64,000 nt of DNA, taken from positions 6,701,001-6,765,000 of the forward strand of contig NC_092674.1 in NCBI RefSeq assembly GCF_964355755.1, read 5' to 3'. Positions within the stretch are counted from its first letter, which is position 1. Every line of letters begins with the position of its first letter. Below are positions 1,050 to 64,000 of the stretch, piece by piece. Origin of the DNA: Antedon mediterranea (taxonomy: Eukaryota > Echinodermata > Crinoidea > Comatulida > Antedonidae). The position numbers were made by a program, and so were the translations under genes. Below the pieces are notes generated by a model. The model saw only the letters and a program-made list of their open reading frames with translations, ran no database searches and was not told the DNA's origin.

Positions 1050-2650
1050 TTAATTATCATTGGTCAATACTTAATAAGCCATTGTGATTGGTCACAATAC
1101 TTTTATATTCATTGTGATTGGTCAATACTTTACATGGGATAATTATCATTGGTCAGTACTTAATAATCCATTGTGATTGGTCACAATACTTTTATATTCA
1201 TTGTGATTTCTCAATACTTTAATATTCATTGTGATTTGTCAATACTTAAGAATCCATTGTGATTGGTCAATACTTTACATGGGATAATTATCATTGGTCA
1301 ATACTTTAGAATGCATTTTGATTGGTCACAATACTTTAAAATGCATTGTGATTGGTCAATACTTTAATATTTATTGTGATTTGTCAATACTTAAGAATCC
1401 ATGGTGATGGTCAATACTTTAGTATCCATTGTGTCTGGTCAATATTTTTCATTGGTCAATACTTTAAAATGCATTGTGATTGGTCAATACTTTACATAGG
1501 ATAATTATCATTGGTCAATACTTTAGAATGCATTGTGATTAGTCAATACTTTACATAGGATAATTATCATTGGTCAATACTTTAGAATGCATTGTGATTG
1601 GTCAATACTTTACAAGGATAATTATCATTGGTCAATACTTTAGAATGCATTGTGATTAGTCAATACTTTAGAATGCATTGTGATTGGTCAATACTTTACA
1701 TAGGATAATTATCATTGGTCAATACTTTAGAATGCATTGTGATTGGTCAATACTTTACAAGGATAATTATCATTGGTCAATACTTTAGAATGCATTGTGA
1801 TTAGTCAATACTTTAGAATGCATTGTGATTAGTCAATACTTTAGAATGCATTGTGATTGGTCAATACTTTACAAGGATAATTATCATTGGTCAATACTTT
1901 AGAATGCATTGTGATTGGTCAATACTTTAGAATGCATTGTGATTAGTCAATACTTTAGAATGCATTGTGATTCGTCAATACTTTAAAATGCATTGTGATT
2001 AGTCAATACTTTAGAATGCATTGTGATTGGTCAATACTTTACAAGGATAATTATCATTGGTCAATACTTTAGAATGCATTGTGATTGGTCAATACTTTAG
2101 AATGCATTGTGATTAGTCAATACTTTAGAATGCATTGTGATTCGTCAATACTTTAAAATGCATTGTGATTGGTCAATACTTTACAAGGATAATTATCATT
2201 GGTCAATACTTTAGAATGCATTGTGATTGGTCAATACTTTAGAATGCATTGTGATTAGTCAATACTTTAAAATGCATTGTGATTGGTCAATACTTTACAT
2301 AGATAACTATCATTGGTCAATACTTTAGAATACATTGTGATTAGTCAATACTTTAAAATGCATTGTGATTCGTCAATACTTTAAAATGCATTGTGATTGG
2401 TCAATACTTTACATAGATAACTATCATTGGTCAATACTTTAGAATGCATTGTGATTAGTCAATACTTTAAAATGCATTGTGATTCGTCAATACTTTAAAA
2501 TGCATTGTGATTCGTCAATACTTTAAAATGCATTGTGATTGGTCAATACTTTACATAGATAACTATCATTGGCCAATACTTTAGAATACATTGTGATTGG
2601 TCAATACTTTAAAATATATTGATTGGTCAATACTTTAAAATGCATTGTGA
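1050..2650. repeat. Minisatellite A1: ~28-bp units with CCAAT boxes
   Basis: Units follow attggtcaatactttaraat plus gcattgtg, with a longer variant holding aggataattatc. Dozens of copies are present, mostly in the same orientation. Many carry ATTGG, the reverse complement of the CCAAT box. No coding content is seen. Confidence 0.92.
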
Positions 2651-3749
2651 TTGGTCAATACTTTATTCATTGTGATTTGTCAATACATAATAATTCATTG
2701 TGTTTGGTCAGTACTTTATTCATTGTGATTTGTCAATACATAATAATTCATTGTGATTGGTCAATACTTTATTCATTGTGATTTGTCAATACATAATAAT
2801 TCATTGTGTTTGGTCAATACTTTATTCATTGTGATTTGTCAATACATAATAATTCATTGTGTTTGGTCAGTACTTTATTCATTGTGATTTGTCAATACAT
2901 AATAATTCATTGTGTTTGGTCAATACTTTATTCATTGTGATTTGTCAATACATAATAATTCATTGTGTTTGGTCAATACTTTATTCATTGTGATTTGTCA
3001 ATACATAATAATTCATTGTGTTTGGTCAGTACTTTATTCATTGTGATTTGTCAATACATAATAATTCATTGTGTTTGGTCAGTACTTTATTCATTGTGAT
3101 TTGTCAATACATAATAATTCATTGTGTTTGGTCAATACTTTATTCATTGTGATTTGTCAATACATAATAATTCATTGTGTTTGGTCAGTACTTTATTCAT
3201 TGTGATTTGTCAATACATAATAATTCATTGTGTTTGGTCAGTACTTTATTCATTGTGATTTGTCAATACATAATAATTCATTGTGTTTGGTCAGTACTTT
3301 ATTCATTGTGATTTGTCAATACATAATAATTCATTGTGTTTGGTCAATACTTTATTCATTGTGATTTGTCAATACATAATAATTCATTGTGTTTGGTCAG
3401 TACTTTATTCATTGTGATTTGTCAATACATAATAATTCATTGTGATTGGTCAATACTTTATTCATTGTGATTTGTCAATACATAATAATTCATTGTGTTT
3501 GGTCAGTACTTTATTCATTGTGATTTGTCAATACATAATAATTCATTGTGTTTGGTCAGTACATTATTCATTGTGATTTGTCAATACATAATAATTCATT
3601 GTGTTTGGTCAGTACTTTATTCATTGTGATTTGTCAATACATAATAATTCATTGTGTTTGGTCAGTACTTTATTCATTGTGATTTGTCAATACATAATAA
3701 TTCATTGTGTTTGGTCAGTACTTTATTCATTGTGTTTGGTCAATACTTA
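2650..3749. repeat. Minisatellite A2: 53-bp higher-order unit, about 20 copies
   Basis: It is built from two A1-like half units: tttattcattgtgatttgtc then aatacataataattcattgt then gtttggtcagtac. Copies are almost identical, differing mainly at cagtac/caatac. It looks like a younger higher-order expansion of the neighbouring A1 array. Confidence 0.92.
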
Positions 3750-6901: not shown

Positions 6902-7980
6902 GGGTGTCACGAAACCTAAGACCACGAAAGCTAAGACCCCCTAAGACCTAAGATCACAAAAGCTAAGACCCAAGACCTAAGATTACAAATATTTATCTTT
7001 CGCACCTGCCTTGTATTTTAACTCCCAACATTTATTCTGAATACCACACCTTAGAATTGGCACTTTCATGAAAAAGAATCACATAAAAAGTAACAAACAC
7101 ATTTTTAAATTGATGATTTTACAGACGTTTTTCTCGCACACAAAATGACTAGCCTACAGCACACTAGAAGTAGGCCTACCCCATGTTCAATGTTTTTGTT
7201 TCTATGGAACGTCAAAAGAGCAAAAATTATATAGAGGGCTGAAAACTCTGTGGAGTCCATCTACAGTGAGGATGGAACAATGTAAAATTAAAATTGTAAT
7301 GATAATAGTATAATCATGCAAGTACGAAGAAATAAATACTGGCAAATAAATTTTAAATTAAAAATTATGATAAGTTTTTTTGTTTCGTTTTCTTTCTGTT
7401 TTTATACTTGTACTATTATTGTTGCTCTTTTGGTGCTCCATAGAAACGAAAACATTGAGCATGGGGAGCTCGAGGAGTTACATTACAGAATACAAAGAAA
7501 CACGTCTGTAAAATCATCAATTTAAAGGATTTATTTATTTGTTATTATGTGTTTCTCCTTCTGAAAATACTTATAAGTCCTAATTTTAAAGTGTGGTATT
7601 CAGGATAAAGTTAGTCAACAAATTTGAAGTCAAAATACAAGAAAGGCAGGTGCGTAAGAAAAACATCCTCTGAACCAACACATTGGAGTAAATATATACC
7701 AACAAACAACCCGTCAAGTTTGTTTGTTGTAAAGAAAAAATATACATTTACTCAACGGGCGAAAATAATGTGAGTTTATCTATGTTTTGCGGTAGTATTA
7801 AATTATATTTATGGTAATAAATGAAACCTACTGTGTTTAAAATTATGTATGGATAAACAAGTATTGTTTTTAAGCTGTAGTATATCTTAGAATTTGTAAT
7901 CTTAGGTCTTGGGTCTTAGCTTTCGTGATCTTAGGTCTTAGGGGGTCTTAGCTTTCGTGGTCTTAGGTTTCGTGACACCC
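6902..7980. mobile_element. Mutator-like foldback MITE (type A), copy 1
   Basis: Terminal inverted repeats of about 84 bp start gggtgtcacgaaacctaaga and are made of ctaagac/cgaaagct subrepeats. A perfect 10-bp target duplication cattgaaaca lies at 6892-6901 and 7981-7990. Inside, a second imperfect inverted repeat (gcacctgccttgtattttaa outward) almost fills the element, so a single strand can fold into one long hairpin. Long TIRs with 9-10 bp duplications are the mark of Mutator-like elements. No transposase is present. Confidence 0.9.
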
Positions 7981-29902: not shown

Positions 29903-30110
29903 TATATTCCGCCGAATCACGTATAATAAAATTACACCGCCACACGTTTACAATAAACAAAATACTATACTACTTCCGACAACTTATCTATTGCTATTGG
30001 TTTGGTAAAAAATCACGTGCGGAAATTCATGAATTAAAACACACCCGTGACCATCTTGGTCGTGCGCCAAGATCTCGCGGTGGAAATTTCCCAGCCTTTC
30101 ATAGTCAATT
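29903..30110 (-). promoter_or_regulatory. Gene 1 upstream region: kB-like, CCAAT and E-box motifs
   Basis: Upstream of the gene 1 ATG the minus strand has CCAAT (29996-30000), CACGTG (30014-30019) and GGGAAATTTCC (30082-30092), which resembles an NF-kB site. The transcription start is unknown. These are motif matches only. A kB site would fit feedback, since this receptor family can signal to NF-kB. Confidence 0.3.
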
Positions 30111-30263
30111 ATGAAAAAATAATACAAATAGGCATCTGATAGGCATACAGTAAATATTTATCAACTTCATCATGAAAAATTTTTAATCTCATAAATTTAC
30201 TCTGTCAATTTTTAATACCGATAGCCTACATTTTGTGCAAACACATTTGGTTAATTACGTATA

Positions 30264-30300
30264 CTAGAGGGTGAGCTCGCTTCGCTCGCTCCCCCTCTAG
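30264..30300. other. GC-rich hairpin ctagagggtgagc / gctccccctctag
   Basis: Thirteen-bp stem with one mismatch and a loop rich in tcgctc. It stands out in AT-rich surroundings. Confidence 0.5.
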
Positions 30301-32800
30301 GAAGTGTAGACGATGGTTCTCGGAATGATAATGTTCTCCTTATACATTTTCTGTCGGTTACCATTATTGAAAATGCTTGACATTCGTAAAACTGAACTAC
30401 TTTGTTTCACAGTGTTTTAGATGATTAATAACATTTTAAAGTATAGTTTTTATTGTTTGGTAGGGCCCTTTGGGGAGGCGGAGGTCATTTGAGGGAGGTG
30501 CTTATTCGAGGGATATATGTTAAATTTTTTAGTTCTAATAATATGGTAACATTTATAATCAAATGAAATCCTCTCATAGATATGAAAAGTGGTAAAAAAG
30601 AATAACAAATGCTTGGTAAATTGCAGATAACAGTGCGGTGAATTCTACTACAAATAGTATAATTGTGTTATTATAAATATGTGGATGGACGTTTATTAGA
30701 TAGTTGGGTTGTGGGGGGGGGGGGGGGGTATTATTCAAAGTGATGTTTTATTGGAGAGGCGTTTATTCAAATGAATACCATCCTAATAATTATTAATACA
30801 TTATTTAATTTAATCATCTTTTGAAACTAACTGCCGTGACAGAGTGGGCCCAAGAAAGAAGACATTACGGCTTGCAACATGGGCAGACATCTCGGTCCTA
30901 ACGGGACACAGGAAGATAGCCTACAGTTATTCATGCAAGCTTACTCAATAAAACTCAGCTATCGGGATTTCACTCGAAAAATGTCTTATCACCAAATCTC
31001 CCTATGTAATTGTATAATACTATTCCCCACAATATATTCTGATTCTTTATGGCGTATATTTAATTTGATCTTTATTAATTTGCAGTATAATTCCTATTAT
31101 TTAACTACTGTACCTTCACACACGTGTGGTATGTTTTAAAATAAACAAAAAACTGAAATGGCTATGATTAATGGCCAATTTTTTCGTCTTCCAAAGGGAC
31201 ACTGTATTGATTGATGGAAAGTGCCTGTTTCCAGTCACCTTTAGGGTCAAATCTATTATTTTAACTGCTCCCTTGTGTATAAAAGAGAGAAAATATTTGA
31301 AACTAAGGTGAACTTATCTTAAACCCGGAAATTACTTTGACCGGGAAGAATTGAAATTGAGAGGAAAATCCAATGTTGAAATCATAAATGTTGTTAAAAA
31401 ACTCTTTATAATATCTTCCTAAGATATAAATATGGAACAATAGCGTCGGCGTGCACACTAATGTTATCAAATCTACGTTTCGCGGTACATCTCGGATAGA
31501 TAATGTAGGTATCCAAGGCGGAGATTTGTACCGAAGTTTTTGCATTGTGCTCGCCTATGTCAAAATTAACCATAATTTATATATAGATAGTACCCAAAGT
31601 ATAAGGCCGCGTATTCTGCATAAATCGGCATAGTTGACTACTCGTGGTTAACAGAATACTAGAACAATCGGACATCAATGACAACTTTTAAGTTAAAACC
31701 AAATGGTTTAATTTATTTAATAAATATTAAACGTCATAACAGATTTGAAGAAGATATTATAATAACCTATTTATCAGTATTCATTATTTTTCATATTTGT
31801 TATTCACTTGCATAATAATAGCACGGTAACTGAAAAAAATTCCCTTTTTCAAGGGTATGGATAGCCTGCAATAAACAATTAGTTTATAGATTATATATAC
31901 TTCAATTCAATAAATAAACATAGATAACTCAAATAGGCCTCGCCCACGCTCTATACAAAATACACTGTCATGTGCATCGATTGAAGCCTAGATATCTTTA
32001 GGCCTATGCTTTCATATATATATATATATATATCCTCATCTTTATCGTTTCAAATTAATTAATTAAATTTCAGTATATCACCGGGCGGTTTAGAATTAAT
32101 GTTCTTTGCCTCTTGTGTTTATATATATATATATATATATATACAAATTATGAAATAAGGTCGAGGTATCCACTGCACTGCAATGTTTCCGTTATAAAGA
32201 GCTCAGCTCAATCTCCCGTAGTTTTTTATGACAGACTACCGGTTAAGAATAAGACATTCAACGATAAAATGCTTTTAAAATGCTTTTTATTTCACTGACT
32301 GAATGTATTCTCAACTGAGATCAATTTTTTACAAATTCTTCATTTTTCGTCTATATTATTTATTTTTTTTTGCATTGGAGGTGAGTTTCAGTTCACGAAT
32401 CACGTACAAGTGAATACTGAAAGTCACTTTGAGATGCTGAGCGTATTAAAAGTGAGAACTGTATGTAGGCCGTTGTACCATAAAATCACCAGTTTATTAT
32501 GACAATAGGTCTACTGTACTATGAAACAAAAATCTAGCAAGAATAAGTGTGCGATGTATGCTGTAGTAGCCTAATAAATTGACCCGGATGTGATCGCGCT
32601 TTGACAGCAGAAGAATACAGTATATCTCATTGAATCAATTGCAAGAGAAAACGGATCGATAGTTTATAAATAAAATATTAACATAATACCAGTGTAAATA
32701 AAGAAAAGTAACAGACTCATTGTGAATACCTACTTGCGCACCGCAGCCACACAGTTAGCCAGTCAAAAAATGTGCCCATATATAATTATATATATAGACA
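30301..32800. other. Intergenic upstream of gene 1
   Basis: About 30470-30790 resembles the aataaacgc element at 56813. 32380-32720 shares gaatactgaaagtcactttg and a tttgacagcagaagaatac-like word with 38.6-38.98 kb. No gene is seen. Confidence 0.5.
32010..32150. repeat. Two (AT)n microsatellites
   Basis: catatatatatatatatata at about 32013-32032 and tatatatatatatatatata at about 32120-32142. Confidence 0.9.
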
Positions 32801-32804
32801 TGAA

Positions 32805-32875
32805 TGAATGATGTCTATCACTACCATATTTGGGCATGTCACAAGCTGGTTTGATAGTGTATACAGAGCTTTAAA
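32805..32875. mobile_element. MITE family ctctgtctacactatcaaac, 3' fragment
   Basis: atcactaccatatttgggca followed by gtttgatagtgtatacagag. The left half is missing. Confidence 0.6.
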
Positions 32876-33685
32876 GATTGATAGTGAAATTCTGATGAGA
32901 TCGTAACTCATAAACTACCCTCGGTACGTCGTAGTGACGAATACCGTCGTGTTCGGCCGCCAACGAGTTCGGCCGCATGTATTTAGTATGGAACGCCAGG
33001 CTTGCTTGCATTGTTTATATTAAATGCATTGTTTAGATTGGCGATCTCCGTGGCTTATTCCATTAAAAAAATAGGGGTGCATTGCTTTACCGATTTTTCT
33101 CTACATTTGTATTATTGTATATAATATTACGATTTCTTTTCAGATACAGTTAGATTCATCACAGAGATAGAGAAAAATGAAAATTATTTTATTATATACA
33201 ATCTTAACACATTTATTATCAATTCCTGTATTTTTATTTAGACATGTTATAAGTTTGAGAATTTACGAACGAATTAACTTAACTACCATATTTTATAAAT
33301 AAACATATAATATAACATTTATATTTATAATTGTTTTTTCATATATAACCACTAGCATGCATTAAAATTGACTTTATTACTAGTAATAACATGTTATATT
33401 ACAAAACTACTTAACTAATAAGTAATATAGTTTGCAAATAGTTTAAAATGTAACAATGAAACAATATCTTTTTTAATGTTTATTACTAACATACGATTTT
33501 TACTAATATCTTACTTCTTTACATATATTAAAATTGACTTTATTTCTAGCAATAACATGTTATATTACAAAAGTTCTTAACTAACGTATTTTGCAAATAG
33601 TTTAAAATTATATTTAATGTTTATTACTAACATAAGAGTTTTTACTAATTTTTTAACTAATTTAACTAACATACATACATTAGCA

Positions 33686-34383
33686 CTATTCAACGCGAGC
33701 ATCGCGAGTAATAAGTTTACTCGCGGCAAGCATTTGAGAACGTACACTACGTTGGCCCTCGCGGTACTCGTCCCACAATGTTTCAACTCCATTCTTCTCC
33801 AACACTGTTGCTTTGCACGTCACATTCTTGTTTCCGAGAAAACATCTCCATGTTGTATTTGCCCGTCTTTTATCAATCTTCTCTGTATATTGGTACCCAT
33901 GACTGTCTACAAGCGAGTCCTGAAACAACAGAAGGTTAAGTTGGTTTTCACAAGAAATGCGATAATAAAAAAAAAATTACAAAGAATAGATTATAAATAT
34001 TTTAAGAACTTACATTCCCACGTTTTGTTGTTCCTGCTAATCGCCGATAAGTAACGACGTCATCATCAACAGCAGGCATCACTGGTATTGGTTGTGGTTC
34101 AGGGTAAAGATTCAGTACCTCTTCTTCTATGAACGATTGGTTCCAAAAAGTCGCCAAGGTCGGCTGCAAAAATCTCCAGTTGCGGCACCGGTTGGACGTT
34201 GTTTTCTGGAGCACATTCTCTACATGTCTAATCAATAAAACCCTCTTCGACGGCTAACCTGTACGCTGCTCCTCTTTTCACTCCTGAGTCACACCGACGA
34301 TGTTGCCATCTCTGACACTCTTCGCAAAACGGTCCTTCTTGCTGTTCCGTTACGGGTTCGCGACATTCAATACAATCGTTCAT
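33686..34383 (-). pseudogene. Broken PHD-finger/FLYWCH gene of a Mutator-like element
   Basis: From ATG at 34383 the frame reads CIECREPV, FCEECQRWQHRRC, then a TAG stop just before TCRECAPE, where a PHD finger usually has Trp. Further on, the frame shifts to one reading YPEPQPIPVMPAVDDDVV and TYRRLAGTTKRGN up to a donor at 34002 (GTAAGT). After an intron it joins DSLVDSHGYQYTEK and WRCFLGNKNVTCKAT, the FLYWCH zinc-finger pattern. The final HxH of FLYWCH is absent and a stop follows at 33686. FLYWCH domains often precede MULE transposases. One nonsense and one frameshift make it a pseudogene. Confidence 0.65.
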
Positions 34384-34424
34384 GGTTCGTAGATAATCAG
34401 TAAAAGTGTAGTTAACAATTCAGA

Positions 34425-34498
34425 TGGCAATTCCACCCGATTCTGCTACTGTCCACAGGTGCTATCTGTAAAACTATAGCAGAATCGGGTGGAAATTC
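34425..34498. other. Hairpin (18-bp perfect stem) upstream of the PHD/FLYWCH gene
   Basis: ttccacccgattctgcta and its exact inverse are separated by a ~30-nt loop. It lies just upstream of the pseudogene ATG. Confidence 0.75.
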
Positions 34499-36612
34499 AG
34501 AAATAAGTAATATTCTCTAAAATGAGGTTCTCTTATAAAGATGCGCGCACTCCGGTTATTGTTTTACCGATTACAAAAAAAGAATCCTTAAATGTACCGA
34601 ATTTTGTGTGTGTGTATTGTGTGACGGTAAACGCCTAACTTAAAAGCGTTATTAATAAATAATGGTCATTGTTTAGCCAAACTTCTTGCAAGTAACCGAC
34701 TGCGCTTGTGTCATCATGCGCTTTTTGTAGGTGACTATACTTTTAAACTTTAACTTTAGAGGCCTAACTGTAATAAATCAAACCAAAATGAATAACGATG
34801 CAAGCGAAAACACACAAAATTATATATTTACAAAATTTCCTTTTTCATGTAACACTACGATGAAATCAAACAAACAACTGTTTTTTTTAAGTCTTTTTAC
34901 TAATTTTTGTAATAACTAGTGAATCACGTTATGAAATTAGACATTATACAGCAAAGTTTCGATGTTATACTTAGATCACTTACCCTACTTTTTTTATGTG
35001 AGATTATACAGTCATAAATATCTGACGTTTTATTATTAACTAAGTACAACAAAATGTTATTTATAAATCAAATTAAATGAGATTTAATGCGTATTTTGTG
35101 ATATTGAACATAAAATCATGCTTTCTTTTTTCTTATATAAAGATTGAATTATAAATAATGACATAAGAAAATGAAATGTTTTCATTTTTGTACCGGTCGG
35201 AAAATGTGCCCCAACGATTATATTTAAGACTGAAAGGAATGCAAGTTATATACAGTACTGTCATTAGATTAATTTAAGGATATGCACTTCTATAAGTTAT
35301 AATGAAAAAGAGTGTGTGTACTTTACAAATAAATATTAACTTTTAATTATGTTTTTCTTCATGTATCGTTGTTGTTACTGTATATCAATGTCGGTGAAGT
35401 TTGCCACATATAATTTGTACACTTGAAAATCAGAATCAGTAATGTATACCACAACTTAATAACATTTATTTTTACAAATACTGTACAGAGTAAAATAAAT
35501 ATAAAACCAATAATGAACATATTATATTAACATAACGTAAGAAAAGAAATGTAAGTGAAAACGGACGCAACAACAATAATAAGCAAGGTTTATTTATTTA
35601 AATTGTTCTTGCAGTTAACAAACTGAATTACAACAATCGTGACAATTTATAAAAATAGTAAATATTGGATAAATAACATAATAAAATGTAACATTAATAT
35701 TAACATCTCCATTAATCACATACAACAAGCAAGCTAGCTTCCCTCTAATTATTAAAAACATAAAATAATTCACCATTATTTTTATATTTAACTTTGATGT
35801 TAATAACACTTCAACAAATTGAAGACACGAAACGTAACACATTTCATTGTTATGTTAATAAAAAACAACCATGCTACACCACCTTCATTGTCTAAGATGG
35901 AATTCAAGACACTCCCTCATTGTTTTAAAACAATAGCAGTAGTAGCCTTTTCAGAGTTTTCGCAATCCAATGTTGGTAGGTTTTACTGTGGAACTGTATA
36001 ATCCTGAAATAATTCAAGCCTTACTATATATTAATTTTTCCAAAAATCGCTATAAAAAAGGAATTTCGAAATACTGTAATGTTATTTCCTCCTATTTTCT
36101 TACGAAGGCATAGGCTTATTTAAGTATTGTTGATAGTATACAATAATTATTAGACATACAATAGGCCTATATAACCAGAGTTTTAAAATACTTAATGTAT
36201 TATTAACTGATTTAATGGTCATTTCTGTTTTTATTAGAACACATTAGGCCTGCAAGAGTAAATGTACAAGACACAAGTACAAGTTTATTGCCCGTTTAAG
36301 ATTATTATAATAATAAACGTATATCTAAATCATTTAAAATAGATTCAAATATATCCACACCACAGCATTCTAAATAATACTTATCACAGAAAGTAATATG
36401 ATAATACGCCGTACATTTTATGTCGGTCAATTTCGATCGATCACGTTAGAATGCACCCACATTTTTAGAATGGAATAACCCAATGAAAAAAACCAGCAGA
36501 ACAAACGGAAGTTGATGCATAGTTGGCGCTCCATACATAGCGCCTTATATGGGCATTCAAAACATTGCGGCCGAAACCGTTTGCGGCCGAACACGATGTA
36601 CACCGTAGTGAC

Positions 36613-39180
36613 CCGGCCCACATAGGCCTACTTATAGGTATAACGATGCAAAATTAAAAGTTATTATTTTTCACAAACAAATTATACATATATTGCCTGT
36701 TAGTATTTTGTATCAATATTATAATAACAGAAGAATTATGAAAATCTCTGACTTGATTGAAACATAGGGTCTAAAACTTCGCCGAAATAATCGTTTTTAG
36801 CCGGCCACGAACGAAGTAAAATTGCGCCCTCACATTTTTCGAGAATGTTACACTACAATACATAAAATTACGGGTTTTAGTAATACAGTATATTTTGTAC
36901 AGTATATCAACATTGTAAAATTCAATAAAATATGATATTACATGTTTATTAAATAAAAAATAGTGTTTATTTAACCTCATTCAAAGAATTTAAATACATT
37001 ATTTTCCCGCGTATTAGACAGACCGAAGAGACAACGTGACTTCACGGCACACGCGAGGAAATTGTTACCATAGAATGTTTTGACCACCATTATTCAATGA
37101 TAAGTTGATGGTATTTATTATACCCGGCTTATTTTGACAGATAGCTTACAACAGACAGATGATGATAGTCATGCTACTACCTGTCTGCTTCCTAAATCTC
37201 AAGACTCTCATTTCCCACACGTGCTTTGGGTCTAAATTAGTCGAGTTTACACATTCTCAATTCTGTCAAGCCGTAGCTTTGCGCCCGATACTGCTTCCTA
37301 ATGCTTACTTCCTCCGGGTATATAACTGCCTGAGGCAGCATTACCGCAACATTATTGATATTACTTTCTACTTACCGGTACATAATTCATTAAATACAAC
37401 ATACAAAATAAACATTTTGACTAAGGACATTATTTTATTTTGTTTACACATCAGCATGCAACACCTTCCGAATTTTTCAATCAAAACAATCGGGTAGATA
37501 CCGACGACACCTTTACTGATAAGTTCCACGTGCCTAATCTTTCTGGAGGGAATTCCCCTTTAATGATAGCCAATCATGAAGCAGGGTTTGTAGGTGGTCA
37601 TTGCGTCATGGAAAGTATTTGAGATAGAGGCCGAATTAATATTATGTTGAATTGCTCAGAAATACACTAATCATCAAACATCCATGCCAAATCAGTTCGA
37701 TTATGTTTTGTAAATAATATTCATCAAACTATCGATCCATGTTGAAATACCAGACTAATAATATCCACATTTATTGGTCTGGTATTTCAACATAGATCAT
37801 ACAACCTAGCGCATCATACAGCCTAGCTTTAGAGATTATTTGTGATCGTAAAAAAAGATTACATAATAATTAATATGCAATACACTGAAGTGCTGAAAAC
37901 AAAATTAAATTTTAAAAGTAAACAAATATTGACCAAAAAATGCAATATTAAATCGTCGATAACTACCGTATATGAGAGCATAATATTCGTGTAAGTTGAT
38001 AATTATTATGTGATGGGTATATCCAACATATCTATTTTACTTACAATAATTATAGGCAAATCAGTGTTTAATGAACGAACACACTCTAAAGGGGAATATC
38101 TGTATTGATCCATGATTGGATTGAGTCCAACATTTATTATGCACTTTGTAGCATCCGTGAGTGAACACAAAAGATGACTTTCAGAGTGGCATCCTCTAAA
38201 TAAACGTCAAACTTTCCAGAGGCGAAATACAATGCTGAGCGGAACACATTCTGAAGGTGACTTTCAGAATGCCATCATTGGAATTAACTAAACTAATAAA
38301 GTCAACCGGGCTTATTAGAGATATTCAATATAAAGTGGAAAAATATAAAATGTAATGTAATTTGTATCATGCACAATGATTTAAAGATATATTGTCCTCT
38401 AAAAAGAATATTTTAAACAAACATACAAGGAGTAACTCAATGGCTAACACATAGTAGGCCTACTCCCGAATTAGTCAGTGAATTAACACCAAGCATTCTT
38501 TATAATATAAGTTAATTATTTATAGATATTAAAAACTCTTAAATAAAACGGCAGTTACTGCTGGATAGATACTTGATCAATCCGTGATTAACATTGAAGG
38601 TGACTTTCAGTATATATTCACGTACGAATGAATATTGAAAGTCACTCTCAGCATTATTATGCATGTTACAGTAGAATCATCAATTAAAAAGGTGTAAAAA
38701 ATATAGCGCAATGAACCGCATAAAATCACTTGTATAGTCTTATCAGTTTAAACCGGATTCATCAGCTGAGAGCTAATACTCCATTCTTTGTACGGTATTA
38801 TTGAATTTGAACTCAAATAACGTGATGATACAGCAATTCAATATCATTATGCAAGAATGGCATTATTGAATACAATACATTGTATTGTACTGTACTGTAT
38901 ACATGCAATAGTATATCAGTAGTTCATCAAGAAATATTTATTTTGGGTGTGGTCGCTGCACTTGACAGCGGAAGAATACCTGACAGTATATTATTGCTTT
39001 GGGTTTGAGTCAAAGGGTATTGCACAATCATTGCAACAACCGATCGATATGGCCGGCTTTTCACAAATAAATTATAAACAACACTTCATTAGTGTTAGAC
39101 GCACGAATACAAGTATACATGGCGTGATTTGATTAACTGATTATTCATTTGTTGTATTTGAATCTTCTAATAGTAACCCA
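36613..39180. other. Intergenic, diverged repeat fragments
   Basis: Repeated gaaggtgactttcagaatgc-type words (38175, 38255, 38605) and pieces of the ~1-kb repeat (gggtgtggtcgctg at 38945). Open stretches at 37159-37497 and 38947-39132 have no recognisable domain. Confidence 0.5.
37737..37797. ncRNA. Long near-perfect hairpin, miRNA-precursor-like in shape
   Basis: atgttgaaataccagac pairs exactly with gtctggtatttcaacat, and the stem continues by a G-U pair and taataa/ttatt to a loop of about 9 nt. Total about 61 nt with roughly 26 bp. Shape only: it could be a tiny MITE. Confidence 0.35.
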
Positions 39181-39240
39181 CAGTGGCGTAACAGGCGGGG
39201 GGGGGGGGGGGGGGGGGCAGGGGGGTCGGAATACCCCCCT
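39180..39240. repeat. Poly-G tract in a repeat
   Basis: A G run near 39197-39217 follows agtggcgtaacaggc. Similar G or C runs occur at 27816-27830, 30713-30731, 41128-41139, 41190-41202 and 56868-56881. Their lengths may be unreliable in an assembly. Confidence 0.85.
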
Positions 39241-39596
39241 GGCGGATTTCACCGGGTTGAGAAGCGTTCGATCGGGCTGGGTAACAAGTCAAAAAAATAA
39301 AATAAAATACAAAGAAGGGATAGAAGAAAGAAAAAGAAAGAAAATATAAGATAAGAATAAATATACGATATATGATATGGCTTCAAATGAGTCGCAGTAG
39401 TGTACAGTATGATATTCAAGTAAGATGATATGAAATACACAAAATCCTGACTGACAACTCGTGGGAAGACGCACTGCTTATCAGCACATTAACATGCGGT
39501 CAGTTGACTGTGGTTTTTGGCGTCTTTTATCTAAGCCGCCATCGCGGGCATCTCATACACAATTGTGACGCTGTGCTGTGCGTGTGAGGCCACCTT

Positions 39597-39977
39597 AAAC
39601 AAGAATATTTCTTACAAAAAACGCTGCTCGCTTATTGTTATTGCTAAGGTCAAGTCTGGGGGTCACTTCATCACGCCTAGATACTTCAAGTATCCTATTA
39701 CAAACAAAAACTTCAATGGACTGTTTTGATAATAATTCAATGATTATCTGACAGCGAATTATATCATGGGACTCATAAATACCAGAATGCTTTGGGATTT
39801 GTCGTTAGACTCTTTTCTCAGCCGTTTTTGGATTCAACAGGTGGTACCAATAAATTATAGTGGAGTTTCCATTTTAACAAAAATGTCAAAGTGTAGTACT
39901 ATAAAGCTGCTTGATTTCATCTAATGAATGAGTCATCTCGTGTGACGTAGCGGGCTAGAGCAGCAGCGTGAAAAATA
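39597..39977. repeat. Dispersed repeat, copy 2
   Basis: Same orientation and near-identical to 26265-26648, differing by a few substitutions and a small indel. Confidence 0.82.
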
Positions 39978-40066
39978 CACTCCTACTAATCGTATGTAAC
40001 GCTCTAGCGATCAGCAAAACGAACGTACTTTTGTGGCTGGCTGTCGCTCCAATACTCAATCTTTCA

Positions 40067-40843
40067 CAGGCCCGTAACCAGGGGGGATCGGGGGATCGTA
40101 CCCCCGCTGAACAGCGAGTTCCGCTTGTCCTCCCACTTTTTTTTTGCTGGGCATACTAACACAACACTACGATTGTTTACTACAGGCCTAGTCAAGCCTT
40201 AATAAATTTAATTAATATAAATCGACATAAGAATATAAAGTATATTTTAACTAAAATATAAAAACCTAACACTAAATTTACAAGATAAATTCTATTTGAT
40301 AACTGCTGAACATCGTGGTTCTGGAGCTAGCCGTACACAGAGCATAGTTGTTTGCTTGACATAAAAGGGTATTCCCCTACACAGGTATCTGCGTGCGTGT
40401 GACGTGCCCAGCCAGCTGCTAGAGAGAAAGCATGCAGCTTACGCAAGTGCAAGATGCAATGGTTGAGTGAATTCAGGGATCATCTTAATTCCATGGTTTG
40501 TTACCTAAACACCACATGATGGTGAATATGCCTGTTAAAGTCTCAATGATACGATCCATTAATGTACCATGTTGTTGCTAGGAGGCTTAAAGGGAGCAGG
40601 GATCTAGCCTAGTTTCGGTCGGCAAGAGAATGCCGTCCTCTGACAATTTAAGGTCGGCAATAAGGTCGGCAATTGAAATTTGTGGGCTGGAAATTACACC
40701 AAATTATATAGTTCATAAACAAAAGAGATTACCCGGAAATGCGATTTGCGGCCATACATAGGCCTATAGAGAAAAAAAAAATTCGAGGGTATGGTTCCAC
40801 TAAACAACGATCCACCCCGCCGTCAAACCTGGTTACGGCCCTG
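40067..40843. mobile_element. TIR element with 5-bp target duplication
   Basis: caggcccgtaaccagg at left and its inverse (one mismatch) at right, flanked by tttca at 40062-40066 and 40844-40848. About 777 bp, non-coding. Confidence 0.7.
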
Positions 40844-41639
40844 TTTCAGTCTTCTAACCGGAAAAATTACTACCTTTGCCAGGTGCGGATCCAATGTTAG
40901 ATTGGGTTTTCACATGTTCAAATGTTATTTCACCTGTGTTTTTAACGGTGGAAAATGTACGATCATTTTGCTGATTGCTGTGCAATAAATGAGAGTGTTA
41001 TTTCCAGGCCAACTACTACTAGTTGGCGAGGCGCCATTTATCATGAATTTTATGTGCAAGAGTACCATTTCCGACGATCTAGGGGTGTCATTTACCAAAA
41101 TTCGCTTCGCCACAGCCCCCACCATGGGGGGGGGGGGGGCTGTGGCTCAAATACTTGGTGTCTGGAAGGATCAGCCCCTCTTTGCGCCCCCCCCCCCCCT
41201 GACAAGACTCCCTTGTTACGCGGCTGGTAACCCACCTTATAAGTCAATCTATAATAGTAACCCACTACTCTAGTAGTAACCCATGGAGGTTATTAGTCAC
41301 AAAAACTATTGACAAAATGATTGGTTTATGATGCAGCTGTATTTTTAAAATAAGGAGATAATGCATGTTGATCTCGGGAGTGGAGGAAGATTGAGTGTTT
41401 TTGGGTTTATAAAAAATAAAGTTAGAGTTCAACCATCTGGATTAGTAATAGTAACACACTACTCTAATAGTAATCCCACTTCCAATATAGTAACCCACCC
41501 TAAAAAACAATTAGAAGATTTACGGTAGGCCTACAACGTATTATTTTTCAAATGATGAGCCTTTAATTACCGGGTAGAATACAGCACATTTTATCACTGT
41601 ACCGGTAACGTAGCCATGTAGGGATTGTATCTGTTAGCC

Positions 41640-57068: not shown

Positions 57069-57565
57069 TTATACGCATGTTGTTAATATTTCTCCATGAA
57101 ATGTGCGTTTCTTTGGAATGCATGGAGCATCACAATCATTATTTATATCATCATTATCATCAAAAACATCATCATTATCATCAAAAACATCATCATTATC
57201 ATCATCTTCATCTTTTCCAGTCAACATTTTTTGATGCACCTCATCTTTAACGGTCACATTATCGGCTGCCGCCGTTTGGTCCTCCTTTAACTTAATTATA
57301 GCCCTACAAACCACATTTATGGCCTCCGAATTACCCACTTCTTTTAATGCTGTCAGAAATTTTTCCATAGGTAATTCCAGAGTATGCAGATATTGATGAA
57401 GCCTTACATAAGACCCAAGACTGTTTATTCTAGCTTGATCTGTAATTCCAAGTGCAGACGCCAAATGTCTCCAACATTTAATTGGCGGTTCAGGATCTTT
57501 ACGTGGGTTAAGCAGCTCTGCTAGACGGTCAGTTGTGTTGATATTAAGATCAGTATAGCCAAATC
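57069..57565 (-). CDS. Gene 2 last exon: death domain and acidic tail
   Basis: 497 nt, phase 1 to stop TAA, acceptor ttaccaatag. The death domain has the helix-2 signature KCWRHLASALG, DQARINSL and later amphipathic helices. After it comes a linker and an Asp/Asn-rich tail built on a short tandem repeat (DDVFDDN, about 57140-57205), then a basic PKKRTFHGE end. Confidence 0.87.
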
Positions 57566-60500
57566 CTATTGGTAACAAGAAAACAACAACATAAGATGAT
57601 ATACACATGGAATAATGAATGTTTTTGACTAATACTTCTATCCATTTTTTCATGACCAATTTGTCAAAAGGGAACCTGTTACTTAAATTCCTTTTTGATC
57701 GCGTGACTAACTACAGGTACAGTATTTAGGTAATTTTCCGTATGTTATTTTGACAATTGAGTCTTAACCTTAAACTGTACATACCATTGCAATATTCATA
57801 GGCTTTGTAAAGAAGACTGCTACTATTAGTTTCATCCTCAGGTTTCTAAAAGAAAAAACACAAAACATAAATACTGGATTTTGAAGATGACTGCTACTGG
57901 AAGCCCACCAATGTTTAATCATTCCTGTACTTATTTGCATATATATGTAAATTAAGCAGTAGGAAAACTGTCATTATTAATAAATTAATCATAAATGTTT
58001 TAGTATTTCCTGTACATATTTGTTGCCAGTTAATCGTGTAGTTCTCGCTCTAGAATATAAATAAAATATTTTATTTTGAATAAAGATTAATAAAGAAAGC
58101 AAGAATTTACCTTTTTTGTGCAAGTTCTTGTTACCATCTCAATATTGGCAGTGCAATCTTTATCTGAGATGTAGTTGGTTGAAGACGATGTTTGAGGAGG
58201 AATATAGCTACAAATAATAAAATTAACTCTACTTGGCATCTACATCATTGATAAGGCTAGGTTACAGTTTCAGAAAGACTATTTATCATTAAACATAGCA
58301 CTAAGTTGTACATTACATAATAACATAAAAATCTTCACTTGAAAAAGAGTGCATTCAGAATTACAAATATCTCTCAGGGGCACCTGTGACTACAACTTGT
58401 TTTGTATCATTTATGAAAAACAATATATTATATATAATCAGATTACTTACATCTGAGTTGCATATCTCGGAAGACCTGAAAATGGAATAAAGTTGGATGA
58501 ATTTGACACGAGTAAATCAATTAAATTCATTCTGTAAGAATCTGAGCATCAATCAGACTTAGCTTAGATAAGACTGGAATTGGAAACACACAGAAAATTG
58601 AAAAGGGAACCTTTAATTTGAACAATCTTGCTTTAGGCAAGAAAAAAAAACACACAAAAAATACTTAATAGTACACAATAGAGCAATTTCCTATAATCTA
58701 AACAATTTAGTAAATATTCATTCTACATAGATAGAGCAATTGTCTACTTTGTAAATAGCTTTTAAAGGCATAACAAAAAAAACCTACCACGCATACAACA
58801 ATAGCCTTTTATACCTTTAAAAGCACAAAACAATATGATGACAGTCATGTTTACAACAGATAAAATGAATATCCAGAAGTTGAAAGTTTTGAAATCCATC
58901 TTAACGCAGAAAAAGTAGCCTGGTTTACGGCTGTCATCTTTGGAGAAAAAAAACGAGAGAAAAATACAAATGTTTAGTTATTATATTACTGAGACAAATC
59001 CTTAATCTTTTTTAATGTAATGAGTCCCTTTTCATAGCTTTTGTGTGCATGCTGTTAGAAAAACAAACAAGAATAATAATTAGCATAAGCTTTTCTTAAA
59101 AATTTTCGCAGTTTTAATTTGGCAAAATAGAATTTTTGCTATAGTTCTTTTATTAGTTGTTTTTTTAACGATAATGTCCACAATTTTAAAAATATAGGTT
59201 AAAAATGCCTATTGAATTCTTAAAAAATCGTTTCATTAATAACTTAAAAAAAAAAAAAAAATCTGTATTATTTTAACTTGGGCTGAAATATCAAGTAGTG
59301 TACCCTGTCTCTCCTTGCCAAGTACTTCACTCAGTTTCTGAGTGCTTTCAATTATTATTTATACTTACTATCATCTGAAGTGGAATTCACACATGCCTGT
59401 ACGGATTCATAATTTTTATTCTCTTCTAAAAAACAAAACAGAATCATAATGGTCTCATTAAAACACTAGATAGTGGTCCTATTGGTGGGTATCTTTGATA
59501 CCTATAATGTATGGCTATGAATTGGTGAGTCACCTTTTTTGTGGGATATCACTGTAAAGTTACAATTATTCCAGTGATTTGGAGGATACAAAGTACAAAC
59601 AAATATACTACTATAAGCCTACTGCTAACAATATAGATTTATACAAAGATTATTTATATAGAAACAACATTATATATTCAGTGGTGTAACTGCTATGAGA
59701 ACTTACAGGCTAAATGAGAGCAAAGAGGAAAATCCAGGATTTAAAATACATCAAAAAAGGCTGAAACATCTAAGGCCTACAGCGTTGAAGGGTTTCTGAA
59801 CCGTACACCACTGTATATATCTAACTGGATTATAAGTATTTCTTATTTTTCTTTATTTTAGTTACCTACCTGTATTTTCAATTGAAATATTTGCAAAATT
59901 AATGCTTTTTTTTTCAATTCGAAAGTTGTGTTGGCTATCAGCATCCCATACAGCTTTACAATAATATACTGCATCATCTGGTTCCAATATAAACAGCATC
60001 TTTCCCTTCTCAACAAACTTGTTCTCATCTGTTGTGTCCAAAGCCTCATCATTTCGATACCAGACATACCTTGTGTCGGCTCTATTGGACGACAACTCAC
60101 ACACGACGTTTACCACGTTTTTAAAAGACACTGTTGGAGGATCTAAAGAAATCATTTTTATATACGGTAATTATTTTTGGGCTTTTAATTACACAATGTT
60201 ATATATGTGCCTTCACATTGTGGAATTGAAACATACGAATATTAGAGTTCCTATCAATGAATGTTTATATTTTATAATAAATTGAATTATGAATAAATCG
60301 AAAAAAAAAGATTATTGGTCACCTTCACAGCCAAACAGGTTTCCGCGGTCTTTGTGCTCACACCGTGTGCAAGTTTCCCTCCTGCTGTCCCAACCGTAAC
60401 TATAATAGAACTCATTGTTTCAATCATGTATATAATAAAAACTAAAACACTAATTTTGACCGTGACAAAATTCCTGGTACTCCCATGGGATTCGAACACA

Positions 60501-61471
60501 TACCCTGATATTTTCTAAGCCATGCCACACATAATAGCCTACTTGTGTTATAAACACAAATCAAAATTTGTGCAATGAACCGAAACAAGAAGGTAATGAT
60601 TTGTCTATATGTATTGTAACTTACCCACTATGGCACGCCCCGGTAACTTACCCACTATGGCACGCCCCGGTAACTTACCCACTATGGCATGCCCCGGTAA
60701 CTTACCAACTATGGCACGCCCCGGTAACTTACCCACTATGGCACGCCCCGGTAACTTACCCACTATGGCACGCCCCGGTAACTTACCCACTATGGCACGC
60801 CCCGGTAACTTACCCACTATGGCACGCCCCGGTAACTTACCCACTATGGCACGCCCCGCAGACAGCAGAAGATTCATTTGTACAGCTTCTTATTGTCTGC
60901 TGATTTGGGCACAAGTTGCACGGATGACATCTACTATCATCCTCAGTCTCACTGTACGTTTTTCCAGTTACACATGCTGTACACCTGTCCCTTTTCATTT
61001 CTCCATTGCCACAGTCTCTCTATGAAACCAAAACATTAAGTTAAAATGGTTTTAGGTTTAGTTTTATCCAGGTTCATTTTATTTTAAAGATTGTTCCCCC
61101 GAAAAAATAAATTTATAATAACTTAATTTTGTTGAATGAGAGTTACTGTAGACTTGATTTGACCAAATATTGAATCGGAAAAAAAAACCAAAAAATTTAC
61201 CTGAAATATTGTAGTCAAATTGTCAGACAATGAGTTTTAAATTAACCCATTTTTCTGTATGTTTTATTTGTTATGGAAGTGAATAGTCAAAGTCTATTTA
61301 TTATTCTTCCTTTTTCATGGTTTCCCAAACAAAGCAATAAACAGAAAATATCAATTCTACCTCAAAGTATCCATAACCAGGTGGACATGTCGTGGGACAT
61401 GTCTTACAAGTTTGTGTTTTCTCATCAAAATACACATCTTTTCCTGTACACTCTGAGTTAGCAGCTTGGCA
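57069..61471 (-). CDS. Gene 2: Ig-containing TNFR death-domain receptor, 5' partial
   Basis: Ten exons join in frame: 61471-61361, 61019-60841, 60399-60323, 60142-59870, 59425-59369, 58937-58788 (or -58815), 58475-58451, 58207-58111, 57845-57785 and 57565-57069, giving 508 aa from the first visible residue (499 with the other donor). Order: CRDs about 1-122; one Ig domain about 123-213; linker with Cys; membrane helix about 251-272; linker with NYISDK; death domain about 345-435 with Trp at 375; acidic Asp/Asn repeat tail. All sites are GT-AG, with phases 0,2,1,1,1,1,2,0,1. It should be a cell-surface receptor signalling through death-domain adaptors. The signal-peptide exon is not identified; by analogy with gene 1 it ends in phase 0 and lies upstream. 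CRD motifs resemble EDAR/TROY/XEDAR. An Ig domain in a TNFR-death receptor is unusual. Confidence 0.85.
57785..57845 (-). CDS. Gene 2 exon: linker before the death domain
   Basis: 61 nt, phase 0-1, acceptor ttcttttag and donor AATG|GTATGT. It encodes KPEDETNSSSLLYKAYEYCN and matches gene 1 exon 8 in phase and size. Confidence 0.78.
58111..58207 (-). CDS. Gene 2 exon: linker with NYISDK
   Basis: 97 nt, phase 2-0, acceptor ttatttgtag and donor AAG|GTAAAT. It encodes a Ser/Thr-rich linker with SSTNYISDK, matching SSSGYITDE in gene 1 exon 7, then a Cys-containing stretch. Confidence 0.78.
58451..58475 (-). CDS. Gene 2 micro-exon in the cytoplasmic linker
   Basis: 25 nt, phase 1-2, acceptor ccattttcag and donor CAGAT|GTAAGT, encoding LPRYATQ. 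It takes the place of gene 1 exon 6 (phase 1-2), but is much shorter. Its small size makes it less certain, but both splice sites are strong and both phases fit. Confidence 0.68.
58788..58937 (-). CDS. Gene 2 exon: transmembrane segment, with two possible donors
   Basis: Phase 1 at both ends. It encodes a hydrophobic helix (FWIFILSVVNMTVIILFCAF). Donor CGTG|GTAGGT at 58788 gives nine extra juxtamembrane residues, GIKGYCCMR. Donor AAAG|GTATAA at 58815 omits them. Both keep phase 1, so either splice form is in frame. Confidence 0.8.
59369..59425 (-). CDS. Gene 2 exon: short extracellular linker
   Basis: 57 nt, phase 1-1, acceptor tgttttttag and donor ATA|GTAAGT. It encodes 18-19 residues with one Cys and an NST sequon. 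There is no counterpart in gene 1. Like the Ig exon it is symmetric and skippable. Confidence 0.72.
59679..59813. mobile_element. Small TIR element in a gene 2 intron
   Basis: cagtggtgtaac and its near-inverse gtacaccactg at the ends, with TATATAT-like flanks. It lies between the Ig exon and the linker exon. Similar ends (agtggcgtaac; gttacgccactg) appear at 39181 and 14488. Confidence 0.6.
59870..60142 (-). CDS. Gene 2 exon: complete immunoglobulin domain
   Basis: 273 nt, phase 1-1, acceptor tttctttag and donor ACAG|GTAGGT. The single exon holds a full Ig fold of I/C2 type: PPTVSF strand, first Cys in NVVCEL, core Trp in YVWYRN, and DDAVYYCKA with the second Cys. An NIS sequon lies near the end. 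Because it is symmetric (91 codons), skipping it would keep the reading frame. Confidence 0.87.
60323..60399 (-). CDS. Gene 2 exon: end of the cysteine-rich region
   Basis: 77 nt, phase 2-1, acceptor ctattatag and donor GAAG|GTGACC. It encodes YGWDSRRETCTRCEHK and FGCE. It is needed to bring the CRD exon (phase 2) into frame with the Ig exon (phase 1), and the fit is exact. Confidence 0.8.
60615..60857 (-). repeat. 27-bp minisatellite x9 carrying a 5' splice site in every unit
   Basis: Nine units of 27 bp. Each unit holds, on the minus strand, the last 17 nt of the CRD exon and the first 10 nt of the intron (GTAAGTTACC). The unit at 60831-60857 is the real exon-intron junction; the other eight lie downstream in the intron. 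Two units have single substitutions. The copies are nearly identical, so expansion is recent or homogenised. Confidence 0.95.
60841..61019 (-). CDS. Gene 2 CRD exon; its 3' end is the first unit of a tandem array
   Basis: 179 nt, phase 0-2, acceptor tttcatag and donor AGTGG|GTAAGT. It encodes CGNG, CTAC, CHPCNLC, an NES sequon and CGACHSG, a TNFR CRD. The last 17 nt of the exon and the first 10 nt of the intron form one 27-bp unit that repeats downstream. Only the first donor keeps the frame open: reading on gives GGG TAA at once. Confidence 0.85.
61361..61471 (-). CDS. Gene 2 first visible exon: CRD1
   Basis: 111 nt, phase 0-0, acceptor tctttttttag and donor GAG|GTAGAA. It contains six Cys, including CKTCPTTCPPGYGYFE, and matches gene 1 exon 2. 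Confidence 0.85.
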
Positions 61472-62322
61472 CTAAAAAAGACAACAAAATTAAAGAGTCG
61501 TTATAAGTAAAGCAACCAAAGTGGATTCATATTTTGAACATTTCAATGCAAAGATGGGACATTAGGTTAAGTTCAGCACTTCATTTACAATGTTTAGGCA
61601 AATCCCTATCCAATCCTGGATCTGGCAGTTTCAATTTTCAAGATTCTTATACTACTAGTTTCCAAATTTCGATATGCAATGCTATCTTTCAAGTCCTACC
61701 CCTATTTCAAATTGCTTGTTTACTTCACCATTTTACAAAATGTGGTGTAGTACCAAACATCTAGTATATTTCATAATAAACAGTTTAAACCCCTGGCCAA
61801 GTTTTTCTAAAATGTTCAATTACAGTACCTCACAAAAACTCATGATTTAAGCTATTGAACATGTATTTAGTAGTAGTAGAACAAAAATAAATTGGGATGG
61901 TTTGAATTTATTTTTTATTTTTTTTGTATTTTGTATTAATATTTGTCTTCAGTGAGGAAATTCGGATTTGATAACATATACAAGGGCATCACATAAATAC
62001 AAAGTTATGGTGGGTATAGGGTACACAAACCTATTAGTGTATTTTACTGGATTATGCTCAAGTTATTAATAGTAGTTAGCAAAATGATATTAAACAAAAG
62101 ATCATGCATACCTCAATAAAACCAGACCAAATGAGAAATTGACAAAATATAGGAATATATATAATATAATGTAACATCATAGATTCATAATGTTCATTAT
62201 TATTAAATTATGGTATTATAACAGCCACACCAATCTGAAAATCAAAAGAACATATCATAATAAAATCTGCTGGTAATGACGATGTATTTGTTTTTTTGAG
62301 ATAAATGTAGTTTTTTATATAG
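61472..62322. other. Upstream of the visible gene 2 exons; no exon recognised
   Basis: By analogy with gene 1, the signal-peptide exon should lie upstream with a phase-0 donor. I find no convincing candidate here. Confidence 0.45.
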
Positions 62323-63161
62323 GCTTTTCATCGGGTGTCACAAAACCTAAGACCACGAAAGCTAAGACCCCCTAAGACCTAAGATCACGAAAGCTAAGAC
62401 CCAAGACCTAAGATTAAAAATATTTATCTTTCGCACCTGCCTTGTATTTTAACTCCCAACATTTATTCTGAATACCACACCTTAGAATTGGCACTTTCAT
62501 GAAAAAGAATCACATAAAAAGTAACAAATACATTTTTAAATTGATGATTTTACAGACGTTTTTCTCGCACACAAAATGACTAGCCTACAGTACAGTACGC
62601 CTACCCCATGTTCAATGTTTTTGTTTCTATGGAACGTCAAAAGAGCAAAAATGATATAGAGGGCTGAAAACTCTGTGGAGTCCATCTACAGTGTGGATGG
62701 AACAATGTAGAATTAAAATTGTAATGATAATAGTATAATCATGCAAGTACGAGGAAATAAATACTGGCAAATAAATTTTAATTAAAAAATCATGATAAGT
62801 TTTTTTGTTTCGTTTTCTTTCTGTTTTTATACTTGTACTATTATTGTTGCTCTTTTGGCGCTCCATAGAAACAAAAACATTGAGCATGGGGAGCTCGAGG
62901 AGTTACATTACAGTATACAAAGAAACACATCTGTAAAATCATAAATTTAAAGGATTTATTTATTTGTTATGTGTTTCTCCTTCTGAAAGTACTTATAAGT
63001 CCTAATTTTAAAGTGTGGTGTTCAGGATAAAGTTAGTCAACAAATTTGGAGTCAAAATACAAGAAAGGCAGGTGCGTAAGAAAAACATCCTCTGAACCAA
63101 CACAATGGAGTAAATATATACAAACAAACACCCCGTCAAGTTTGTTTGTTGTAAAGAAAAA

Positions 63162-63606: not shown

Positions 63607-64000
63607 AAAGAAAAAATATATATTTACTCAACGGGCGAAAATAATGTGAGTTTATCTATGTTTTGCGGTGGTATTAAATTATATTTATGGTAATAAATGA
63701 AACCTACTGTGTTTAAAATTATGTATGGATAAACAAGTATTGTTTTTAAGCTGTAGTATATCTTAGAATTTGTAATCTTAGGTCTTGGGTCTCAGCTTTC
63801 GTGATCTTAGGTCTTAGGGGGTCTTAGCTTTCGTGGTCTTAGGTTTCGTGACACCCGCTTTTCATCGAGATTAACAAATCAATGCCTTCGGACAAGTTCT
63901 GACATGTCACTTTCCCTTTAAACTTTAAAAAAACATTTACCATGTGGAGCTAAAAATGCAGTAGCATTTAACGTTACATTAACCATGGATATTTATTTAC

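Follow-up and report, generated by a model that had tools for sequence, protein, structure and literature searches.

Tandem repeats that multiply a 5′ splice site have been described in a few human genes (CBS, ABCA7, and IFI6), and the array reported here is a further case of that published layout. Turri 1995 is reportedly the source on the minisatellite of IFI6 (6-16). According to the available portions of the published reports, CBS carries a 31-bp VNTR at the boundary of exon 13 and intron 13 (c.1444_1467+7), present in 16-21 repeats (PMC2630376, PMC5188458, PMC1395315). ABCA7 has a VNTR with a 25-bp unit in intron 18; single-unit retention there is about 2% and independent of repeat length, and with a longer repeat, total expression is lower and exon 19 is skipped more often (PMC5954066). 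In IFI6, tandem units give multiple splice donors, and two downstream units are used (PMC4526556).

Our locus lies on the minus strand of a 64,000-nucleotide stretch of DNA, which we call the window and to which positions refer unless a contig is named. Like CBS, it has many copies of a unit made of the last exon bases and the first intron bases (24 + 7 in CBS, by our reading of the coordinates). It differs in gene, sequence, and unit length (31 bp in CBS), and copy-number polymorphism and an effect on activity have been reported for CBS. As in ABCA7, where use of the next-unit donor leads to a frameshift and a target of decay, the array's first GT coincides with the donor of the exon (PMC5954066). 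The ABCA7 array differs in that its description places it in the intron, from the GT onward, and in that its main reported length effects are next-exon skipping and lower expression. IFI6 resembles our locus in that tandem units multiply the splice donors, whereas downstream use in IFI6 is said to yield protein isoforms (PMC4526556). In our literature search we recognized no genome-wide survey of donor arrays, which does not in itself show that there is none.

A receptor-like gene model

The model joins ten minus-strand exons, through GT donors and AG acceptors of compatible phase, into an open frame of 508 residues that lacks a start codon. In the modelled protein, cysteine-rich repeats are followed by an Ig-like domain, then by a hydrophobic (membrane) stretch and a C-terminal region. 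The exons are as follows.

62112-62180, minus strand: possible first exon, low confidence, signal-like MMLHYIIYIPIFCQFLIWSGFIE, donor GAG/GTATGC, phase 0 (relaxed scan, one of seven candidates)
61361-61471, minus strand: exon Ea, cysteine-rich, end phase 0 (gene model)
60841-61019, minus strand: exon Eb, cysteine-rich repeats, phase 2 at its end, bounded by acceptor ttcatag and donor 1 (TGG/GTAAGT), with an open frame
60323-60399, minus strand: exon Ec, remainder of the cysteine-rich repeat, phase 2 in and phase 1 out (gene model)
59870-60142, minus strand: exon Ed, Ig-like (Ig_2 E 2e-5, 25.1 bits against a cut-off of 27, piece searched alone)
59369-59425, minus strand: exon Ee (gene model)
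58788-58937, minus strand: exon Ef, hydrophobic, membrane-spanning by eye (gene model)
58451-58475, minus strand: exon Eg (gene model)
58111-58207, minus strand: exon Eh (gene model)
57785-57845, minus strand: exon Ei (gene model)
57069-57565, minus strand: exon Ej, C-terminal region and stop codon (weak Death_EDAR, E 0.008, piece alone)

A strict scan for a signal exon gave no candidate, and a relaxed scan gave seven.

Every family match for the modelled protein falls under its curated cut-off. TNFR_c6 matched at E 0.001 (19.8 bits) with the piece and at E 0.006 (17.4 bits) with the whole protein, against a cut-off of 29.4; Death_EDAR, with a cut-off of 27, matched the piece at E 0.008 (16.5 bits). 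The search with the whole protein returned TNFR_c6 (0.006), DMP19 (0.1), and Death_EDAR (0.15), and Ig was absent. Among solved structures the top match was an NCAM2 Ig domain (E 0.024), and no TNF receptor was found at E <= 1. A single-sequence structure model of the C-terminal region, made as a death-domain check, was helical with a pLDDT of 51. Because the family matches are weak and solved structures give only the Ig domain, the receptor label is based mostly on architecture. No paralogues were found at E <= 0.01 in a search that weak matches can escape; all nine matches were the gene's own exons.

A 27-bp minisatellite spanning the exon-intron junction

The features of the array are the following.

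60616-60858, minus strand: minisatellite, nine units of 27 bp (TRF and unit comparison)
60835-60840, minus strand: donor 1, GTAAGT, the sole frame-keeping donor (frame analysis)
60619-60813, minus strand: donors 2-9, each leading to ...GACHSG and a stop (frame analysis)

The units are arranged head to tail (TRF period 27, 9.0 copies, 98% matches), and each consists of the last 17 exon bases and the first 10 intron bases. A GTAAGT donor is present in all nine, with GT at 60840, 60813, 60786, 60759, 60732, 60705, 60678, 60651, and 60624. A sequence-only reading of this DNA had described nine 27-bp units of this composition with nine GTAAGT donors, and both TRF and the donor positions confirm that description. 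The array that it placed at 60615-60857 is real, whereas its boundaries were shifted by one base. Six of the nine units have the consensus sequence; the others carry single changes (G16T in unit 6, G6A in unit 7, and C27A, at the last base, in unit 9). Identity at a lag of 27 is 0.98 over 216 bp of the array vs a window background of 0.28, and it exceeds 0.6 at no other stretch of the window.

Because the unit straddles a real exon-intron junction, each copy contains a full 5′ splice site, and by the gene model the first unit carries the real donor of the exon. The U1 pairing energy of the array donor is -9.8 kcal/mol (-8.6 for copy 6), which ranks second among the nine distinct donors in the gene model. 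In the 354-Mb, 18-contig genome, a pair of GGGTAAGT separated by 19 bases has six matches, all of them inside this array. A looser GGTAAGT pair with period 27 has 16 matches, eight in this array, seven in a low-complexity array on contig C4, and one on C7; read backward, the same pair has 40 matches vs 16 forward.

Since repeats can be miscounted, the copy number might be an artefact of assembly. We consider this extremely improbable: the array is only 243 bp long and contains three units with single changes, which is short for long reads (the sequencing method is not known), and similar arrays are present at other loci.

On the minus strand, another frame is open across the whole array (60889-60608), reading (GRAIVGKLP)n with one unit altered; it shows no sign of translation.

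Reading frames after donor choice

Only donor 1 keeps the frame, as the earlier reading had held; it reads open into the next exon (60399-60323), joining in phase 2. Its further claim, that the other eight donors share one short protein through GGG TAA, is also borne out. Donors 2-9 all retain GGG followed by TAA. The product common to them covers 97 residues of the modelled frame and ends ...VCGACHSG; a message spliced from a downstream donor would be longer by 27 × n bases, which include this in-frame TAA. The stop does not come right after the cysteine-rich domain, as had been proposed. It sits inside a cysteine-rich repeat that the next exon (YGWDSRRETCTRC...) carries on, and the truncated form has its last repeat cut and its earlier repeats whole. 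The intron is 441 nt long from donor 1 and 225 nt from donor 9. It contains no AATAAA or ATTAAA; one ATTAAA, at 60189, is in the following intron.

The shared short product had been interpreted as a possible secreted decoy. In a regulated form of this idea, purposeful use of the downstream donors would release a secreted cysteine-rich fragment. Such a role would fit the identical truncated protein from eight of eight downstream donors, and the possible signal-like first exon would suit it too. The stop common to donors 2-9 requires no design, however, because any phase-2 intron that starts with GTAAG reads NNG TAA if retained, and here it cuts a cysteine-rich repeat. By the usual exon-junction rule, a stop far enough before the last exon junction predicts nonsense-mediated decay. 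The early stop lies 763-952 nt upstream of that junction, so decay is predicted for the downstream-donor messages. Also against a decoy is the absence of AATAAA and ATTAAA from the array intron.

Donor arrays at other loci

The genome was searched for three GGTAAGT with gaps of 8-38 bases. The matches listed for contig 1, which reach 41.21 of its 41.37 Mb, include seven arrays, all of which were read. In three of the seven the array starts at a verified exon end, in genes resembling DHX8, EIF3L, and TDP2. The unit is 37 bp with 21 exact GGTAAGT donors in the DHX8-like gene, 29 bp with 14 in the EIF3L-like gene, and 31 bp with 27 in the TDP2-like gene. The exon joined to the next exon through donor 1 was compared with the corresponding solved protein: the DHX8-like join matched over 79/79 residues with equal lengths (best E 2.9e-42), the EIF3L-like join over 62 residues without gaps (E 2.4e-27), and the TDP2-like join was gapless at the junction (E 3.9e-35). 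The introns measured from the first donor are 886, 801, and 1092 nt long for the DHX8-, EIF3L-, and TDP2-like genes; measured from the last donor they are 86, 346, and 222 nt. These arrays resemble ours in starting at a real exon end and in having a first donor that alone is open and in frame (four of four genes, with 21, 14, 27, and 9 donors), and they differ in their unit lengths, donor numbers, and unrelated sequences. The DHX8-like array is at C1:17776255-17777061 (L011); a DHX8/PRP22-like product is itself a spliceosomal helicase, and splicing from the last donor would shorten the intron to just 86 nt.

On contig C3, two families of GTGAGT arrays are probably also at exon ends, as judged by the exon upstream of each array. 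One has a 17-bp unit in 23 copies and stands behind an open exon, DVRQQQEKVRK...AEDAQTQ (L025). The other, with a 34-bp unit, occurs at no fewer than five loci (>=5) at 20.09-21.65 Mb, and a short open exon precedes the array in both of the two that were read (L024, L027). At these two loci the exon is similar (DAPIAAP..SSLGT), as if exon and array had been duplicated together.

In all, 17 other arrays or families were read, three of them verified at exon ends, two probable, and 12 not. In those 12 (L010, L013, L014, L015, L017, L018, L019, L020, L021, L022, L023, and L026) no exon end was found at the array start, meaning no open frame with an acceptor that abuts the first donor, a definition that a non-coding exon end would escape. 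The loci are a non-random sample, set by the words searched and the matches listed. For AGGTGAGT, four of the ten listed loci were read (L024-L027), leaving out C1:24690375, C1:37700749, C2:24824379, and three C3 34-bp loci; the C4 low-complexity array and the C7 pair were also left out. The array at C1:40902567-40903660 (L015) has 36 donors (GTAAGTATCTATAATTTGTAGGTTGATACAG) in 31-bp units, each of which includes an AG as well as a strong donor; it is on the strand opposite an exon that looks fibronectin-type by eye.

A donor array is thus not special to this gene. Because some unrelated genes of this genome, and a few human genes, have like arrays where an exon ends, a repeat by-product is the most likely origin, not a purpose-built switch. 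The roles of the DHX8-, EIF3L-, and TDP2-like genes make a decoy senseless. Genes that seem essential must still yield a full message, which favors use of donor 1. Since a sequenced animal has arrays in genes such as DHX8 and EIF3L, donor 1 presumably supplies enough correct message. Together with the automatic stop, the predicted decay, and the low retention of ABCA7 units (about 2%), the equal anatomy of these three genes makes a secreted decoy very unlikely. The observation of the array is confirmed, and the case for its decoy interpretation is weak.

Counts of donor words in the genome

The triple GGTAAGT search gave 1250 overlapping matches in the genome vs 1005 for the reversed word, and single GGTAAGT sites numbered 37,770 vs 51,161. 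Per single site, donor-word arrays are therefore somewhat commoner than reversed-word arrays, with large arrays inflating both. The forward and reversed counts were 180 vs 236 for AGGTAAGT, 47 vs 29 for pairs of CAGGTAAGT, 729 vs 389 for TGGTAAGT, and 273 vs 51 for AGGTGAGT. Among the matches listed, one C3 array dominates those of TGGTAAGT, and one C3 family supplies most of those of AGGTGAGT. Whether donor arrays are in excess, which might point to selection, was considered and set aside, given the mixed forward and reversed counts across words, and because the counts are of overlapping matches we draw no inference from them. A Markov background computed from 73.8 kb predicts approximately 30,000-41,000 GGTAAGT, which is too rough for estimating the share of true donors. 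The long TGGTAAGT array that inflates the donor-word counts runs from C3:1667842 to beyond 1669086 with alternating periods of 14 and 15 bp (its start is in L023); no exon was seen upstream of it.

Splicing of the array and gene dosage

We think it likely that the array is a largely neutral minisatellite spanning a splice junction, with donor 1 dominant and with rare downstream use giving messages that are probably lost to nonsense-mediated decay. Local tandem duplication of a 27-bp junction piece, followed by expansion, would have created it. Minisatellites are common in this genome, and some land on splice junctions of unrelated genes, as verified in three and probable for two families. Donor 1 would be the working donor because it gives the sole in-frame message and, across the exon, lies closest to the 3′ splice site. 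With donor 1 in use, copies 2-9 would be intron and nearly neutral; an occasional downstream donor would give a message with the in-frame TAA, an expected target of decay. In the available text of a minigene study, when two identical strong donors competed under exon definition, the upstream donor was used exclusively in five minigenes, and short introns (<250 nt) favored the downstream one (PMC9225289). Because the intron here (441 or 225 nt) is near that short-intron border, some leak is plausible.

Arrays of this kind need not be neutral, since ABCA7 expression is lower when the repeat is longer, and CBS activity when the repeats are more numerous. Copy number could act as an attenuator, the extra donors diverting splicing from donor 1 and allele length setting the amount of full-length protein through message decay. 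The published excerpts offer it some encouragement: the CBS repeat number is polymorphic, from 16 to 21 (PMC2630376), more copies of the 31-bp repeat accompany lower CBS activity (PMC5188458), and ABCA7 expression is lower with a longer repeat (PMC5954066). The short last-donor intron (225 nt) points the same way. However, unit retention in ABCA7 was constant across repeat lengths, and in the text available its authors did not ascribe the lower expression to decay of unit-retaining messages (PMC5954066). An effect of copy number on dosage is possible; as an account of this array, we judge attenuation unlikely.

On its own, an array of this kind is a curiosity for which human parallels have been published. 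Of greater interest is that one genome has a series of them in different genes, with 9-27 competing donors. Several arrays with varied unit, copy number, and intron length would let ordinary RNA sequencing show how the spliceosome chooses among identical nearby donors. We put forward, as a speculation that we consider unlikely, that minisatellites carrying splice donors recur in this genome as a class, located where exons end in many unrelated genes, some of them essential. The first of 9 to 27 near-identical donors would win, and the copy number would determine the size of a small leak into messages that decay. The arrays, this one included, would then be evolvable, gene-specific dosage trimmers. 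How often a genome produces a striking layout should be checked before regulation is inferred from the layout.

Folding of the array RNA

Because the units are self-complementary, structure in the array RNA might hide or expose particular donors. The array folds at -107 kcal/mol, with a z of -3.45 relative to dinucleotide shuffles (-3.17 when folded as DNA), and in the ensemble, pairing predominates at most of the donors. When the unit itself was shuffled and repeated nine times, however, 133 of 400 such arrays folded at least as well. The stability is therefore that expected of a GC-rich tandem repeat and is not evidence of a mechanism. RNA structure as the key to donor choice was rejected by this unit-shuffle control despite the z obtained with plain shuffles, and we regard it as most improbable.

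Other repeats in the window

TRF identified five other tandem arrays in the window with a period >=16 and >=4 copies. A 2.7-kb minisatellite of ATTGGTCAATACTTTAATATTCATTGTG, with about 97 units of 28 bp in one TRF reading, occupies 1051-3749. A 15/32-bp repeat (approximately CCTAAGATCACGAAAGCTAAGACC) occurs in pairs of opposite orientation, at 62339-62414 with 63761-63850 and at 6908-6989 with 7885-7975. The members of each pair are about 1 to 1.4 kb apart and are perhaps the ends of mobile elements.
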